The notes beneath the pieces are model-generated. The model saw only the letters and a program-made list of their open reading frames with translations, searched no databases and was not told the origin of the DNA. DNA of 64,000 nt, taken from Roseimicrobium sp. ORNL1 (lineage in GTDB: Bacteria; Verrucomicrobiota; Verrucomicrobiia; Verrucomicrobiales; Verrucomicrobiaceae). How positions within the stretch are numbered: the stretch's first letter is position 1; each line of letters begins with the position of its first letter. Made by a program: the position numbers and the translations under genes. Positions 6,024-57,369 of the stretch are shown here, piece after piece. The stretch spans positions 6,634,001-6,698,000 of the forward strand of contig NZ_CP049143.1 of NCBI RefSeq assembly GCF_011044495.1, written 5' to 3'.

Positions 6024-6145
6024 ACTCGGGCTGCGAAGGGAACTTCGGGGAGCGTAGACCTTGTGAGCCAAATATTCTTTGATAGCAGGACGAGTTGAAA
6101 ACAGATCGCTTAAACGCGACGAACTTACCCAGCGTGTCGCAGAAG

Positions 6146-6299
6146 GCCCAAGGATCGGGAACGCCTCGTTCCCGTCAGCGCTCAACACGCCTGGTGACGT
6201 CGCATGTCGAGCACCCGTGGTGATCCAAAAGAGTGCTTCGACGGATACACGCCATAGACCTTTTCACCCACGGGAACGAGGCGTTCCCGATCCTTGGGC
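6146..6299. repeat. Family II nested palindrome, copy A (short form)
   Basis: Perfect 30-bp inverted repeat: 6146-6175 pairs with 6270-6299. Each arm also contains its own hairpin, CGGGAAC-GCCTC-GTTCCCG. Flanks at 6088-6145 and 6300-6396 are clearly homologous to those of copy C (24453-24510 and 24829-24931), so the element proper spans about 6088-6396. Copy A lacks the inner CGCAGGGAGCGGCACTAG palindrome present in copies B, C and D; only 94 bp separate its arms. Confidence 0.9.
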
Positions 6300-6478
6300 C
6301 TGTGTCACGTCCATGTTCCATGGATGCACTTGTCGCATGAACCACTCCAGGTAGCCGACGTCCTTCACAGAAAGACTCGGTTTCAACATTCCTTGGTGTC
6401 ACTCATTGCCCAGAGGTTATATCACGTGTGACTGCTCCGCACTGACCGCACACGGAGTGGTCGGACCACCATGCCCAC

Positions 6479-8068: not shown

Positions 8069-8267
8069 GAATCAAACACAGAGACGCAGAGGAACTTCGG
8101 AGACTGAAACTGAAAATACCGTGCGCGATACGCGGGACATGGATTCCTTCCGGGCGGAATCACGCGCGGCGCGTCTTCGGATTTAGCAATCTCATTCTCA
8201 GTCTCCGAAGTTCCTCTGCGTCTCTGTGTCTCTGCGTTGAATCCCATGCAGGTGACCACACCCATAC
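8069..8267. repeat. Family IV palindromic element, copy 1
   Basis: Inverted arms at 8074-8113 and 8198-8238 share CAGAGACGCAGAGGAACTTC and the following CGGAGACTGA. The right end continues into GTTGAATCC-ATGCA-GTGACCACACCC, which matches the end of copy 2 (13684-13870). It lies in a 444-bp gap (7838-8281) with no gene visible. The centre has a separate GC-rich imperfect hairpin around 8126-8176. Confidence 0.75.
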
Positions 8268-13628: not shown

Positions 13629-13683
13629 CCTGCGACCACCGATTCCCATGGGTTTCTGGCAGACCACGCAATGGAATGGCACT

Positions 13684-13870
13684 GGGCGTGGTCACGTGCA
13701 TTGGATTCAACACAGAGACACGGAGACGCAGAGGAACTTCGGAGACTGAATTGAAACTGAGATCGAAGCTGAAACTGCCTCCCCTCAATGCAAGCGGGAG
13801 CTCTACTGTATTTCTCAGTCTCTGTGCGCTCTGCGTCTCTGTGTTGAATCCAATGCACGTGACCACACCC
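13684..13870. repeat. Family IV palindromic element, copy 2
   Basis: Outer inverted repeat of about 36 bp with one mismatch: 13684-13719 pairs with 13835-13870. The arms contain GTGGTCACGTGCATTGGATT and CAACACAGAGAC. Inner parts repeat CAGAGGAACTTCGGAGACTG as in copy 1. It fills the space between two convergent genes, so a role as a bidirectional terminator is possible but unproven. Confidence 0.85.
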
Positions 13871-13878
13871 ACTCCCCC

Positions 13879-16774: not shown

Positions 16775-16874
16775 GTTGATTCCTAGCAGGGGAAGGCGGG
16801 GTGGGCATCTGGAAATCGAGAGGGGGTGAGACAGCTAAGGCATCCGATTGAGGGCGGCGGAGCGACGCCGAAGG

Positions 16875-17045
16875 CCCTGGACTGCGTGCAGCCTGCTGCC
16901 GCTTTCCCTCAGTGCAGCCTGCTGCACGCTTCACCGCGACGAAGTCGCCAAGCTTTCAAGGCACATCATACTACGAGCAAGTAGCATCATCGCCGCAGCA
17001 GGCTGCGGACTCTTCAAAGCGGCAGCAGGCTGCCGCAGTCCAAGG
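16875..17045. repeat. Family I palindromic element, copy 2 (inverted relative to copy 1)
   Basis: Arms at 16875-16906 and 17014-17045 pair over about 30 bp. Internal hairpins GTGCAGCCTGCTGCAC and CCGCAGCAGGCTGCGG correspond to those of copy 1 in reverse order, and the GCGACGAAGTCGCCAAGCTT core matches copy 1's reverse complement. It sits between two divergently arranged genes (gap 16775-17139); no gene is seen in that gap. Confidence 0.85.
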
Positions 17046-17139
17046 ACGCTGCGCGTCAGCTTCAGGACACGATTTCTCTTCGTTTACTCTAACCTTTCCA
17101 TGTTACATCATATCGCCGCATACCCTTCCTGCCTTCCCC

Positions 17140-17757
17140 ATGACCCCGCAGCAAGTCGCCCAGAGCTACGACCAGATCGCGTCCGTTTGGAACAGCGATG
17201 ACTTCCACCGGGCCAATGGCATCCCACAACACGAGCGGGCCATTCGATTCTGCGACAACAAAGGCAATGGCACTGCCACCGCTACGGCCATCGATATCGG
17301 CTGCGGCAGCAGTGGGCGCATCATCGACCTGTTGTTACAAAGGGGCTTCGTGGTCGAGGGACTCGATATCTCCACCGAGATGCTAAAGCTCGCAAAGCAG
17401 CGACATCCGGAGGTGACGTTTCATCAGGCAGATATCTGCACGTGGGCATTCCCTCAGAAGTATAACTTCATCTCCGCCTGGGACAGCATCTGGCATGCAC
17501 CACTCGCCGAACATGAACAGATTCTCCGCAAGCTGTGCGATGCGCTGACTGCAGGAGGCGTGCTCATCTTCACCAGCGGCGGCGTGGACCAACCGGGAGA
17601 CACCACCAACCCCTGCGAAGGCCAACCGATGTACCATGCCGCGTTGGGAATACCCAAGCTGCTGGAGGTCGTTTCACAGCAGGGCTGTGTCTGTCGGCAC
17701 CTGGAGTATGATCAGTTTCCGGAGCTGCACGTGTATTTGATTGTGCAGAGGAGTTAG
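17140..17757 (+). CDS. Class I SAM-dependent methyltransferase
   Basis: 205 residues from the ATG at 17140 (MTPQQVAQSYDQIASVWNSD); the longer frame runs back into a family I repeat. Motif I is AIDIGCGSSGRIIDLLL (SAM glycine loop), followed by the acidic motif VVEGLDISTEMLKLAKQRHP and the post-motif HQADICTW. The C-terminal GGVLIFTSGG completes the Rossmann-like fold. The methyl acceptor is unknown. It is a single gene bounded by repeats on both sides. Confidence 0.85.
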   Translation: MTPQQVAQSYDQIASVWNSDDFHRANGIPQHERAIRFCDNKGNGTATATAIDIGCGSSGRIIDLLLQRGFVVEGLDISTEMLKLAKQRHPEVTFHQADICTWAFPQKYNFISAWDSIWHAPLAEHEQILRKLCDALTAGGVLIFTSGGVDQPGDTTNPCEGQPMYHAALGIPKLLEVVSQQGCVCRHLEYDQFPELHVYLIVQRS

Positions 17758-17800
17758 AGCGTAGGCATCGAGTTGCATTCATTGAGCCGTGCCATCCTCT

Positions 17801-18117
17801 CAAGGAGTGGGGCCATTCCTGGCCCCATTTGAGGTGTGCTACGCCCCCAAGACACAAGCACCCATGCATGTGAACGAAGCGATGGCTTCGCAGGGAGCGG
17901 CACTAGCCTAGTGCCGTCATAGGCAGCGTGGCCACGCAAAGACCTTGGAAGCGCCCGTTAAGCTTCGGAAGATGGGCTCCGCACCCCGTTTTGCCCACCA
18001 CCGGCACTAAGGCTAGTGCCGCTCCCTGCGAGCCGGCCTATCCACTTTTAGAGATGCGCATCCTCAATGGTGCTCATCACGCGCCAAAATGGGGCCAGGA
18101 ATGGCCCCACTCCTTGG
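17801..18117. repeat. Family II nested palindrome, copy B
   Basis: Outer arms 17801-17829 and 18087-18117 (CAAGGAGTGGGG...), each with a local hairpin GGGGCC-ATTCCT-GGCCCC. Inner arms 17889-17916 and 18002-18030 (CGCAGGGAGCGGCACTAG...), each with a local hairpin CGGCACTA...TAGTGCCG. Non-palindromic words such as GTGCTAC and GTGAACGAAGC between outer and inner arms are shared with copies C and D. The element fills the 395-bp gap 17758-18152; no gene seen there. Confidence 0.92.
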
Positions 18118-18152: not shown

Positions 18153-20312
18153 TCACTTCCTACCACCCAGCGCCTCCACCACATCCACCCCATCCGGCAG
18201 CTTCTCCTTCAGCAAGGCATACAGCGAGGGCTTCCACGGGTCCAGGTCCACGATGATGCTGCTGGTGTTCCCGAGATACTTCCCCGTGCGCAGGTCATAC
18301 ACATGCGCCGGTTCCGCGAGCAGGGCCTGCGTTTGAATGGGCTTCTCCAGTGTTTCGTTCCCACCGGCCTGGGCGAGGTCCTCGCTCATGTGGTAGTCGA
18401 TGTTCCGCTCGAAGGCGACGAGCCTGGCGTTATTCCCAAGCTTGTAGCGGTGAATGCGCACGCAGTCGTCGGGGGCCACGCGGATGGGTGGTGGATCGAT
18501 GCCAACGGAAGTGTTCGCCAAGTCAGGCATGGACTCCCGCTCCTCCGCGGTCATCTCACCCAGCCGATTGGCCGGATAGCTCGCCATGTCGTACGGAGAG
18601 CCATAACCGGGCTCTTCCCCCCTTTTGAACTGACTCCCAGATTGCCCGACAGTACGGGACAGGTAGGGCAGCAGATGTTGCCTGGGACCTGTGTGCCTGC
18701 CATGACCATCGAAGCTTCCGGTGGGATTGCTTGCCACCAGTCGCCAGTGGTCATCCGGTTGACTATCACGCCAGCGATAAATGGCCAAAGCCTCCTTGTC
18801 AGTGATGGCATAACTCTGCGGCATCACGAACATGCGGTAGCCGCCACTCTCCAACGCTCCATTTTCAATCTGCTCCGTGCTGAGGAAGCGCGGTGAATAG
18901 CCTTGGTCCTGCAGACGCTTCACCCAGCCGTTGCGCACCCGCGCATGCCGGTTGTGCTTTCCCTCATGGCTGCTGAAACGTCGCGGCCATGTGCGACCAT
19001 CCGCCGTGCTCTCAATGAGCCATGCCACCTGGATGCTCGCCTGTGAATAGTGAATAGCGATGGGGTCGTATTCCTTCTCCGCGCCCAGGAAGAGCTTCGC
19101 CAGCGGTGAGGTCATCTCCTTCAATGTGGGCGCAAGGGCCTTGCCTTTGTCCGTGAGTGGCGCATCGGGCTTCGACATGTCCACGCAGTCCTCGCTCCAC
19201 CAGATGATGCATCCTTTGTCCCCTTCCAGAAGGAGATGCCACAGGCGACGCATGGCGTGATTCGTATCCTTCTCGAAGAGCGTGCATACGACAGGCTTTC
19301 CCGGCATGAAGCTGCCAAAGATCTCACGCGCATTTGCCACGTCATAGGGCTCCACCCAGTCGAGGCTTTGCGACAGCTTCCACAGGTCGTAGCCACCAAA
19401 CGCATGCGGCATCTGCGTGCCCTCGATGCCGACAGGCGTGGCGGCATCTACCTCGCGCGCGGACTGGCGCAGCGTATGCAGCGTGCGTGCGAGCACGCTG
19501 TCCATGTAGGTGCGGAAGTCGCACCACGGGGAGAAGTTCCAATTCACGACCTGTTGCTGGGCCGTGATAGGCAGATCCAGTTTCACCCGCTTCAGCGCGC
19601 TCCAGTCCGGCGGGGACTTCGGCATGCGCTCGCCCGTGACCATGCGCGCCTTGATTTGGTCCGTGGTGAAGGGGCGCACGTCTTCCCACGTGGCGAAGTC
19701 CGAGTCCCACTGATCGTTCAGCTTCTCAAGGGTGCTGTACTGTTCCTTCAGCCAGGCACGGAATCCTTCGAGGCTCTTCGGCGAGAAATCATAGTCGAAG
19801 GGATTTGCCGAGGTGGTGACGGAGAGTTCATCCCGCAGGTCATACAACAGCGGCTGATGCTCGCGATGTTTCGTGGCGGCGCGCACCACTTCCTTCTTCG
19901 ACTGCTCCAGCCATGCCTCGTCCTCCAGGCAATAGGGGCGCACCAAGGCAGCCGCATCCTCCCGGTTCTCCATCCAGCCATTGATGAACCCGCTCCAGTC
20001 CGTGACGGGCGAGCGGAATTTCAAATACAGGCCGGTGCGGACAATATTCTCCACATAATAAGGCAGGCCCGCTTTCAGATAAGCGGCTGGGTCGCCCTCA
20101 CCCGTGACCATGCCTGCGGTCACGCCCATCTCGCCTGCGCGCTGCAGGAAGAGCGGCACGCGCTCCGGTTTCTCCACCGACTTGCCACTCACCCAGAGGA
20201 TGACCTGGTATGCAGGCCACGGCCTCAGCGTCGCCTCCTCAGCACACGCCCTGCCTGTCAGGATACCGGACAGCAGGGCTCCGAGGATGGCGACGATAGG
20301 GCGGCAATTCAC
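18153..20312 (-). CDS. Secreted GH42-like (beta-galactosidase-related) glycoside hydrolase
   Basis: 719 residues with a GTG start at 20312 and a signal peptide ending near GRACA. The catalytic (beta/alpha)8 part resembles GH42: FDYDFSPKSLEGFRAWLKEQ, then LEKLNDQWDSDFATWEDVRP, the diagnostic 'nascent tract' of beta-galactosidases of this type. Later CIIWWSEDC and GGYRMFVMPQSYAITDKEA fit the domain-2 trimerisation fold. The start codon overlaps the stop of the oxidoreductase gene by 4 nt (GTGA), so they are translationally coupled. The substrate is not evident; family-level confidence only moderate. Confidence 0.7.
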   Translation of the reverse strand: MNCRPIVAILGALLSGILTGRACAEEATLRPWPAYQVILWVSGKSVEKPERVPLFLQRAGEMGVTAGMVTGEGDPAAYLKAGLPYYVENIVRTGLYLKFRSPVTDWSGFINGWMENREDAAALVRPYCLEDEAWLEQSKKEVVRAATKHREHQPLLYDLRDELSVTTSANPFDYDFSPKSLEGFRAWLKEQYSTLEKLNDQWDSDFATWEDVRPFTTDQIKARMVTGERMPKSPPDWSALKRVKLDLPITAQQQVVNWNFSPWCDFRTYMDSVLARTLHTLRQSAREVDAATPVGIEGTQMPHAFGGYDLWKLSQSLDWVEPYDVANAREIFGSFMPGKPVVCTLFEKDTNHAMRRLWHLLLEGDKGCIIWWSEDCVDMSKPDAPLTDKGKALAPTLKEMTSPLAKLFLGAEKEYDPIAIHYSQASIQVAWLIESTADGRTWPRRFSSHEGKHNRHARVRNGWVKRLQDQGYSPRFLSTEQIENGALESGGYRMFVMPQSYAITDKEALAIYRWRDSQPDDHWRLVASNPTGSFDGHGRHTGPRQHLLPYLSRTVGQSGSQFKRGEEPGYGSPYDMASYPANRLGEMTAEERESMPDLANTSVGIDPPPIRVAPDDCVRIHRYKLGNNARLVAFERNIDYHMSEDLAQAGGNETLEKPIQTQALLAEPAHVYDLRTGKYLGNTSSIIVDLDPWKPSLYALLKEKLPDGVDVVEALGGRK

Positions 20313-24393: not shown

Positions 24394-24510
24394 AGTGTCT
24401 CAGGCATCTCCACTTCCATGCGGACGTTTTCATCGGGCCGCGAGTAGTACCAGGACGACTTGAAACAGGCCTTTAACGCGACGCACTTACCCAGCGTGTT
24501 GCGACAGACC

Positions 24511-24828
24511 CAAGGAGTGGGGGCATTCCTGCCCCCATTTTTTGCGCGTGAAGAGCACCACTGAGATCGCACCTCTCTATACAGTGGACAGGCCGGCTCG
24601 CAGGGAGCGGCACTAGCCTTAGTGCCGATGGTGAGCAAAATGGGGCGCGGAGCCCACCTTCCGAAGCTTTATGGGTGCGTCCAAGTTCTTTGCGTGGCCA
24701 CGCTGCATGTGACGGCACCAAGCTAGTGCCGCTCCCTGCGAAACAGTCGCTTCGTTGACATACATGGTTGAAGGGTGATCCCATCCGTAGCACACCTTTA
24801 ATGGGGACAGGAATGTCCCCACTCCTTG
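24511..24828. repeat. Family II nested palindrome, copy C (long form)
   Basis: Outer arms 24511-24539 (local hairpin GGGGGC-ATTCCT-GCCCCC) and 24800-24828 (GGGGAC-AGGAAT-GTCCCC); inner arms 24599-24627 and 24713-24740 with CGGCACTA hairpins. The core reads in the opposite orientation to copies B and D. Flanks 24453-24510 and 24829-24931 match those of copy A, so the full repeat is about 480 bp and nearly reaches the acetyltransferase start. It fills the 583-bp gap 24394-24976; no gene seen. Confidence 0.92.
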
Positions 24829-24976
24829 GGCCTATGCCATGCTCGTGTTCCATGGATACCCTGGTGGCATGAACCGCTCTAAATGGTCTGACGTCGTTCT
24901 GATAAAGACTCGATTACAACCTCTCCCTTGGTATAGCCTGACACGTGACTCCGACGAGCCGCTCCGACAAAAACAA

Positions 24977-35397: not shown

Positions 35398-35714
35398 CAA
35401 GGAGTGGGGGCATTCCTGCCCCCATTGGAGATGTTGCTACATGCCTGGCCATAGAGTTACTCATGTGCGTGAACGAAGCTCTTGTCTCGCAGGGAGCGGC
35501 ACTAGCCTAGTGCCGTCATCTGCAGCGTGGCCGCGGCATCGCATGATGAAGCATGCTTTGAGCTTTCATGATCGGGCTCCGCACCCAAATGCTCACCGCC
35601 GGCACTAATGCTAGTGCCGCTCCCCACGACTCGGATCGCACCCTTCTAGGGACGTGAAAAATGGGAGGTTATCTTCACGCGCTCCAATGGGGACAGGAAT
35701 GTCCCCACTCCTTG
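35398..35714. repeat. Family II nested palindrome, copy D
   Basis: Outer arms 35398-35426 (local hairpin GGGGGC-ATTCCT-GCCCCC) and 35684-35714 (GGGGAC-AGGAAT-GTCCCC); inner arms 35488-35515 and 35600-35628. Same orientation as copy B, with the shared interior word GTGAACGAAGC. It fills the 405-bp gap between two convergent genes (35347-35751), where no gene is seen. Confidence 0.92.
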
Positions 35715-57200: not shown

Positions 57201-57369
57201 GCAAAGGAGCGCGGACACTCTTGTCCGCCATCCCTGACACACCACACTCTTTCATTTGGCGGGCAAGGCCACATGCCACCAGCTGCTCCAGAAGAGTCAC
57301 CAGCAACTTGCACACAAAGTAAGTCGCTACGCAATAGAACGGCGGACAAGAGTGTCCACGCTCCTTTGC
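57201..57369. repeat. Family VI palindromic element
   Basis: 29-bp inverted repeat with one mismatch: 57201-57229 (GCAAAGGAGCGCGGACACTC...) and 57341-57369. Each arm also contains its own GGACACTCTTGTCC-type short palindrome. The 111-bp interior has no coding potential. It fills the 261-bp gap between two convergent genes. Confidence 0.9.

Follow-up and report, generated by a model that had tools for sequence, protein, structure and literature searches.

The 64-kb window analysed here (positions 6634001-6698000 of the single 7.96-Mb contig that makes up the genome) holds, between an ORF for a putative methyltransferase and a convergent ORF, an element of 317 bp that is built as a palindrome within a palindrome (Table 1). 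Its outer inverted arms (CAAGGAGTGGGGCCATTCCTGGCCCCA) enclose inner inverted arms (CGCAGGGAGCGGCACTAGCCTAGTGCCG), and every arm is itself a self-folding hairpin, with the tetranucleotide GGAG, hereafter the guide, located immediately 5' of a 7-8 bp stem-loop. The left outer arm has a sharp conserved edge at YC (17800-17801), two bases 5' of AAGGAG. An earlier note on this DNA had placed a nested palindrome at exactly these coordinates and it is indeed found there, together with the stem pairs that were listed: GGGGCC/GGCCCC in this element, GGGGGC/GCCCCC and GGGGAC/GTCCCC in those at 24511 and 35398, and GGGAAC/GTTCCC in the one at 6146. These four had been taken for copies of one nested family, which holds for the elements at 17801, 24511 and 35398 but not for the one at 6146, which belongs to another hairpin family and has no inner arms. 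A fifth inverted pair, beyond the four first noted, was found at 57204-57366.

Table 1. Elements and ORFs of the window (window positions), followed by RAYT genes of this genome.
Feature	Position	Strand	Details
Putative methyltransferase ORF (by eye)	16912..17757	+	upstream; ends 43 bp before the 17801-18117 element
Composite (nested) REPIN	17801..18117	+	outer REP pair around inner REPIN; one of 17 aligned copies
Left outer REP	17802..17827	+	AA-GGAG; guide 17804-17807; 7-bp-stem hairpin 17808-17827; 43.5 bits
Left inner REP	17893..17916	+	GGGAG, then hairpin CGGCACTAGCCTAGTGCCG
Right inner REP, long-loop form (CCTTAG)	18002..18026	-	genome 6652002-6652026; 0 mismatches
Right outer REP	18090..18115	-	43.5 bits
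Convergent ORF	18153..20312	-	downstream; stop 35 bp past the 17801-18117 element
Second composite REPIN	24511..24829	-	outer arms 24512-24537 (+) GGGGGC and 24802-24827 (-) GGGGAC
Third composite REPIN	35398..35714	+	outer arms 35399-35424 (+) GGGGGC and 35688-35713 (-) GGGGAC
Simple REPIN, other family	about 6146..6301 (repeat scan: from 6144)		GGAT guide, GGGAACGCCTCGTTCCC hairpin; without inner arms
Simple REPIN, third family (AAGGAGCGCGGACACTCTTGTCCGCC)	57201..57369		pair at 57204-57366; family copies surround the RAYT at genome position 7340639
RAYT L035	1038500-1039147		outer REPs 86 bp upstream (+) and 91 bp downstream (-)
RAYT L026	30193-30807		four inner REPs, on both sides
RAYT L095	159869-160738		GT class; GTAG/GTGG + CGACTTTCTCCGAAAGTCG hairpins
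RAYT L102	5300673-5301590		GT class; GTAG/GTGG + CGACTTTCTCCGAAAGTCG hairpins

With up to 3 mismatches, the outer arm was found at 139 sites genome-wide (71 forward, 68 reverse; 0 for a reversed-pattern control), so that the copies first noted are far from being the only ones, and the long-loop form of the inner arm was found at 29 (15 forward, 14 reverse; control 0). A near-identical outer pattern, with up to 2 mismatches, had 119 sites here, 20 in the sister genome G001 and a single one in each of two among the other 36 relatives searched. A covariance model of the outer arm, built from arms of this genome, gave at least 131 matches here (all 131 scored candidates matched), 60 in the sister genome and at least one match at E 0.001 in 51 of the 59 genomes of the family. 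In 109 outer and 70 inner arms, chosen at up to 2 mismatches to the consensus, each base of GGAG was conserved at 97-100%, and some copies carry GGAT or other fourth guide bases. Being palindromes whose stem is preceded on its 5' side by a conserved tetranucleotide, these arms are REPs in the broad sense; since the guide is GGAG, they fall outside the narrow GTAG/GTGG REP superfamily. As expected of REPs, they are present in many copies and mostly extragenic, with 82 of 87 elements lying in gaps between called ORFs. Two composites are absent from the matching gaps of the sister genome, which have otherwise diverged and show no clean empty site or junction.

An exhaustive scan of 608 kb of fetched stretches, the window included, with up to 5 mismatches in the outer arm and up to 4 in the inner arm, gave 124 outer and 73 inner arms. 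These group into 89 clusters, namely 28 simple outer pairs, 11 inner pairs, 16 full nests (outer, inner, inner, outer), one nest with an additional arm and 33 others, 21 of them single arms. The inverted REP pair is thus a dispersed unit here, as in REPINs and BIMEs. Full nests measure 312-322 bp counted from the first AAGGAG, and the 17 nests of the first scan (one 460-bp cluster excluded) align end to end; their mean pairwise identity falls from 0.91-0.93 in the arms to 0.76 in the centre and is lowest, at 0.50-0.54, in the outer spacers. Simple outer pairs span 104-279 bp in total and hold several different interiors, some of them common to a few copies, and inner pairs resemble the nest centre entirely or partly. 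The conserved block of the outer arm starts abruptly at the boundary between YC and AAGGAG. Because the arms are constant and sharp-edged and the interiors variable, we regard the interior as cargo, and the cargo of the nest is the inner REPIN: the 317-bp unit is an inner REPIN carried within an outer REP pair, in other words one REPIN family riding on another. Amplification of the 317-bp unit would have followed an event in which an outer REP pair took up the inner REPIN as cargo. The nested double REPIN, apparently amplified as a unit, is one of the unusual features here.

The stems of the outer arm covary. Among 45 of the 48 distinct outer arms (three degenerate arms were omitted), six of the seven pairs change on both sides and 95.6% of the cells pair, an excess that none of 500 shuffles reached on any of the five measures used. 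At the variable pair, the left and right arms agree in 20 and differ in 24 of the 44 elements with two scored outer arms. The agreement exceeds the 13.3 elements expected from random pairing (P 0.014), as would fit arms of shared ancestry or a degree of conversion between them. Yet both arms self-pair in 22 of the 24 differing elements, strictly by Watson-Crick pairs in 14, showing that left-right conversion alone is insufficient. (An earlier best-match regular-expression scan, which could skip weaker matches, had given 46 two-arm elements, 25 of them differing and 23 of these self-complementary.) The earlier note had seen arms that differ from left to right and still remain self-complementary in two copies, and had considered that arm conversion might account for the covariation; the scan of the fetched stretches extends the first point and argues against the second. 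The unit that is kept is therefore the single arm and not the long left-right palindrome, and the proposal that selection acts on local hairpins, as a recognised DNA or RNA structure rather than decaying DNA, is supported by these elements and by the number of sites.

A transition that breaks a Watson-Crick pair leaves G·T on one of the strands and A·C on its complement, and the mismatches left in the stems may be read accordingly. In 124 outer-arm sites, collected by sequence similarity alone, the six stem pairs counted show on the GGAG strand 20 G·T or T·G against no A·C or C·A, besides 4 other mismatches; the outermost pair, where 4 C·A cells occur, was left out of these counts. The exhaustive recount had raised the sites from 121 to 124 with the 20:0 unchanged, and brought the third family from 3:0 to 4:1. 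The sister genome adds 6 wobbles against no A·C and 1 other mismatch in 20 sites, making 26 against 0 over the two species, or 11 against 0 when distinct pair-by-type-by-species events are counted by hand. Wobbles at the variable pair concern 15 of the 124 sites and all of them pair on the GGAG strand; 7 lie on the plus and 8 on the minus strand of the genome, so that the direction of replication or transcription is no explanation for them. The bias is weaker in the inner family (6 wobbles against 2 A·C) and in the third family (4 against 1). It is absent in family E (GGGAAC), with 10 against 8 (3:3 in this genome, 7:5 in its sister), and the GTAG family D has neither wobble nor A·C in the 11 sites of the best-match regular-expression scan. 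All families pooled give 46 against 11 (two-sided binomial P 3e-6), a value to be read with the relatedness of the copies in mind, as many wobbles may share descent. The bias is thus not general, being absent in one of the four families counted.

For the outer family, the simplest reading of these counts suggests that the form that is recognised is the GGAG strand, single-stranded and folded. Compensatory stem changes would then persist since a hairpin has to fold on the GGAG strand to be recognised, and G·T wobbles would be tolerated intermediate steps. The E. coli transposase TnpA_REP is described as acting only on the REP strand, and its group-3 relatives as cutting mismatched stems poorly (PMC8266576). 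The strand-specific wobble record of the outer family is new or unusual, and counting wobbles offers a cheap way, from sequence only, to probe for the functional strand of a palindrome.

Genes for a candidate recogniser are present in the same genome, which has 17 matches to PF01797 (Y1 transposase). Two of the RAYT genes form what is called a REPtron, L035 being flanked by outer REPs (the upstream one shorter by one base per stem half) and L026 by inner REPs; a further RAYT, at 7340639, lies near arms of the third family. In the sister genome, RAYT L199 carries the same inner REP as L026, and RAYT L198, 63% identical to L035, is flanked by the hairpin of the 6146 copy. The NCBIfam model REP_Tyr_transpos (NF047646) gives L035 and L026 75.8 and 75.9 bits, just below its cut-off of 80, and for both sequences the RAYT model scores above the IS200 model. 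The sole PDB sequence match of L026 at E up to 0.1 is 4ER8 (E 0.016), the structure of TnpA_REP with a REP hairpin. The same structure is the best Foldseek match (E 3.5e-7) of the AlphaFold model of RAYT L116, a relative 59% identical to L035 (in an alignment of 30; pLDDT 91.8); VIA gives Z 14.4 and rmsd 2.7 over 135 residues, the next-best matches being the IS608 and ISDra2 transposases (Z up to 12.2), so that the TnpA_REP fold is found in this model of a relative of L035 and L026. Thg1, viral Rep and ribosomal S6, which Foldseek and VIA also matched but which do not belong to the Y1 family, were set aside as having a ferredoxin-like arrangement in common.

For a wider comparison, we took the best 80 of 439 RAYT loci from a scan of genome contigs of many phyla, plus 11 RAYTs of this genome, and labelled 67 of these 91 by the tetranucleotide found before their flanking hairpins, with only G[GT][AG][GT] sought and 24 left unlabelled. 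This gave 31 GGAG/GGAT (GG class) and 36 GTAG/GTGG/GTAT (GT class) rows. Of the GG-class rows 30 of 31, and of the GT-class rows all 36, have the histidines of the HUH motif (columns 126 and 128), and the catalytic tyrosine is present (column 186, placed by alignment) in 30 of 31 and 35 of 36, as expected of RAYT/TnpA_REP enzymes.

Considering the observed anatomy, copy number, inverted pairing and sharp ends, the RAYT genes flanked by the same arms, the fold and catalytic residues of their relatives and the covariation of the stems, the composite REPIN is very probably a non-autonomous mobile unit bounded by REP hairpins, recognised and spread by a RAYT of its own genome. A RAYT (an HUH/Y1 enzyme related to E. 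coli TnpA_REP) would bind the GGAG-bearing strand when single-stranded and folded, cut beside the hairpin and spread the unit to intergenic sites, the L035 RAYT presumably moving outer REPs and the L026 RAYT inner REPs. Most probably, then, judging from the sequences compared, the hairpins are kept foldable by the recognition of a single-strand-cutting transposase encoded in the same genome. Since RAYT genes are flanked by the same hairpins, single-stranded DNA is favoured over RNA as the recognised form, and palindromes first seen only to covary gain a likely recogniser.

Of 87 elements, 49 lie in convergent, 30 in co-directional and 3 in divergent gaps, 4 overlap an ORF and one is at an edge, compared with 76 convergent gaps among all 360 called in the same stretches (the elements' own included). 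The ORF caller was crude and misses genes such as the one at 16912-17757; when this ORF is counted, the 17801-18117 element is convergent too. This placement agrees with that reported for known REPs (PMC3733652), most of which are described as lying downstream of genes and as probably transcribed. Both observations would also suit transcribed 3'-end structures, such as terminators, mRNA stabilisers or processing sites, with selection acting on the transcript. We hold this to be unlikely, because a REPIN has both arm orientations, so that no preference for G·T on the GGAG strand is expected, against the 26:0 of the outer family. Moreover, YC-AA-GGAG is as conserved as the stem while lying outside it (YC even lies beyond the pattern used to pick the arms), the same arms flank RAYT genes, and a search of the 64-kb window against Rfam gave no match at gathering scores.

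Template switching in hairpins and arm conversion are both known in general, and either could create matched stem changes without selection for folding. The above-chance agreement of left and right arms and the lack of strand bias in family E speak for such copying, but against it stand the 24 of 44 elements whose arms differ, nearly all self-complementary on both sides, and it has no evident reason to prefer one strand relative to GGAG, the strand on which every variable-pair wobble pairs whatever its genome strand; we find it less probable again than selection on a transcript. If the unit were a common type of MITE, with terminal inverted repeats on which a DDE transposase acts, it would likewise be short, multicopy, terminally inverted and of near-constant length, and several copies do lie within a larger common flanking repeat. 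We nonetheless give this explanation hardly any credence for the 317-bp unit: its arms are themselves hairpins with a constant 5' guide, they are found alone, nested or paired with several different interiors, and the transposase genes that the same arms flank are of the Y1 type.

Recognition by a RAYT also places these elements next to known systems. The REPINs and BIMEs of Pseudomonas and E. coli, as presented by Bertels and Rainey 2011 (PMC3116915), are likewise inverted pairs of short palindromes with variable spacers, extragenic and RAYT-linked. The compensatory changes reported there concern the REPIN hairpin as a whole, whereas here covariation is local to each arm, arms often differ, a second REPIN is nested inside and the guide is GGAG. 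The GTAG REP superfamily (Di Nocera et al. 2013, PMC3733652), which includes Opitutus terrae of the Verrucomicrobia, likewise combines a tetranucleotide with a stem-loop, forms dimers whose stems or loops differ, lies downstream of genes and includes REPtrons. In Anabaena variabilis some REP dimers are enclosed by longer palindromes, Stenotrophomonas has hybrid dimers, and Pseudomonas has TIRs that join degenerate REPs to unrelated stem-loops; these come nearest to nesting. The repeats described there carry GTAG, however, and in the text compared no composite is made up of two complete REPINs belonging to two RAYTs. The REPs of Pseudomonas fluorescens of the types GTGGGAG and GTAGGAG (Nunvar et al. 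2013, PMC3686654) have GGAG just before the palindrome, as here. In the text of that paper GGAG occurs 18 times, inside GTGGGAG/GTAGGAG-type REPs of Pseudomonas and never as AAGGAG; it overlaps GTGG or GTAG there, whereas YCAA or GCAG precedes it here, which makes the register of the guide arguable.

With E. coli TnpA_REP (4ER8), the best fold match, the comparison can be made by residue: the guide-region residues W94, Q95 and R104 have their counterparts in W165, Q166 and R175, which 66, 57 and 67 of the 67 labelled RAYT rows retain, while H101 is replaced by R or T in GGAG-linked RAYTs. The L116 model is longer, its residues 20-210 aligning with chain residues 2-145, and the E. coli REP has a bulge, unlike the stems found here. 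The strand-specific recognition of single-stranded hairpins proposed here is that described for TnpA_REP (PMC8266576). The IS200/IS605 TnpA transposases (IS608, ISDra2) have the same HUH/Y1 fold, but in this genome REPs far outnumber transposase genes.

We then asked how the guide is distributed over RAYTs. In a maximum-likelihood tree the guide label changes 5 times, compared with a shuffle mean of 22.4 (0 of 500 shuffles as low). L035 and L026 fall in one supported clade (97/92) of 15 RAYTs, all 11 labelled rows of which are GG, with 5 of these 11 labels among the 16 of 67 that were set by hand where the automatic one was missing or misplaced. As the GG label needs five changes, GG RAYTs do not form one clade; and since this genome has GT-class RAYTs (L095, L102) as well as GG-class ones, both guide classes coexist in it. 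Among the best 80 of 439 loci, GGA(G/T)-linked RAYTs come from many Verrucomicrobiota loci and from single or few loci that are named as Planctomycetota, Chlorobiota, Methylomirabilota, Pseudomonadota, Bacteroidota and Chloroflexota. A stem table across lineages gives 98% pairing, which is descriptive only, its rows having been chosen by hairpin detection. Column 172, which aligns with H101 of TnpA_REP, a residue listed in PMC6006769 (main text) among those of the guide region, holds R (27) or T (4) in the 31 GG rows, and H (29) or R (7) in the 36 GT rows. Its mutual information with the guide class is 0.62, above the largest value of 200 shuffles (0.50), which ignore kinship. We nevertheless set this column aside as the guide-determining residue, as four others separate the classes as well or nearly (183 with 0.63; 70, 20 and 179 with 0.59, 0.57 and 0.53). 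On the tree, the link between guide and residue was not significant over 4 independent pairs (2.9 the same way, 0 opposite, 1.1 without difference).

That these RAYTs follow a second RAYT-REP code, with GGA(G/T) as guide and R or T in place of H101, and that the nested REPIN of two RAYTs could be moved as one by either enzyme or both, is an idea we put forward tentatively and would not bet on; it is weakened by the GG label not forming one clade and by GGAG occurring inside Pseudomonas REPs. The string GGAG is absent from the main text, figures apart, of PMC3733652 and PMC6006769, and a search of literature text listed no paper that has RAYTs, words beginning with GGAG and the full name of REP elements together. 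The REP/REPIN plus RAYT kind is itself known; a GGAG guide with a supported RAYT clade is unusual, and widens REP/RAYT biology by a guide that the REP papers searched do not present as one. As natural variants of guide (GG or GT) and stem come with their cognate RAYTs, the recognition code can be tested by swaps of residues or oligonucleotides.

The GGGAACGCCTCGTTCCC family, to which the 6146 copy belongs and which lacks the wobble bias, has 47 sites here, and the sister genome has 68 (with up to 3 mismatches allowed; some few sites are read twice, once per strand). Its hairpins were not seen beside the RAYTs of this genome with listed flanks, and RAYT L198 of the sister genome carries them; it is possibly an orphan family in this genome. 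The REPINs at 6109-6347 and 24471-24879 are embedded in a larger common flanking repeat, the left part of which was found at nine places in the fetched stretches. A REP-like hairpin follows in eight copies and none after the copy at genome position 2304130; this REPIN-less copy hinted at a target duplication, but a single case proves nothing. Other repeats of the window include a palindromic one of about 190 bp at 1433-1630 and 16867-17059, with dozens of matches in the sister genome, and common inverted-repeat arms of 38-67 nt at 8076-8264 and 13678-13876.

Some of the RAYTs compared appear to lie in-frame within other genes, in the manner of inteins (L123:1625-5503, L131:1244-4435, L129:2-3742, L156:1862-3820, L140:704-5569, L138:146-4459, L179:2057-4969 and L187:1688-5578). 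The frame continues for at least 106 aa past the RAYT match in 27 of the best 80 of 439 loci, mostly from metagenome assemblies, L118 and L171 being left out of these 27 as long upstream only. A literature search on RAYTs in-frame inside host genes found nothing. In eight such loci, Pfam gave host domains around or across the RAYT insert (HsdR, leucyl-tRNA synthetase, carbamoyl-phosphate synthase large chain, exonuclease VII large subunit, Eco57I-type methylase, SNF2 helicase, PriA and class I tRNA synthetase), and the Y1_Tnp model passes in five of the eight. By eye, three LeuRS-like tails (L131, L143, L144) follow a RAYT insert at the same place.
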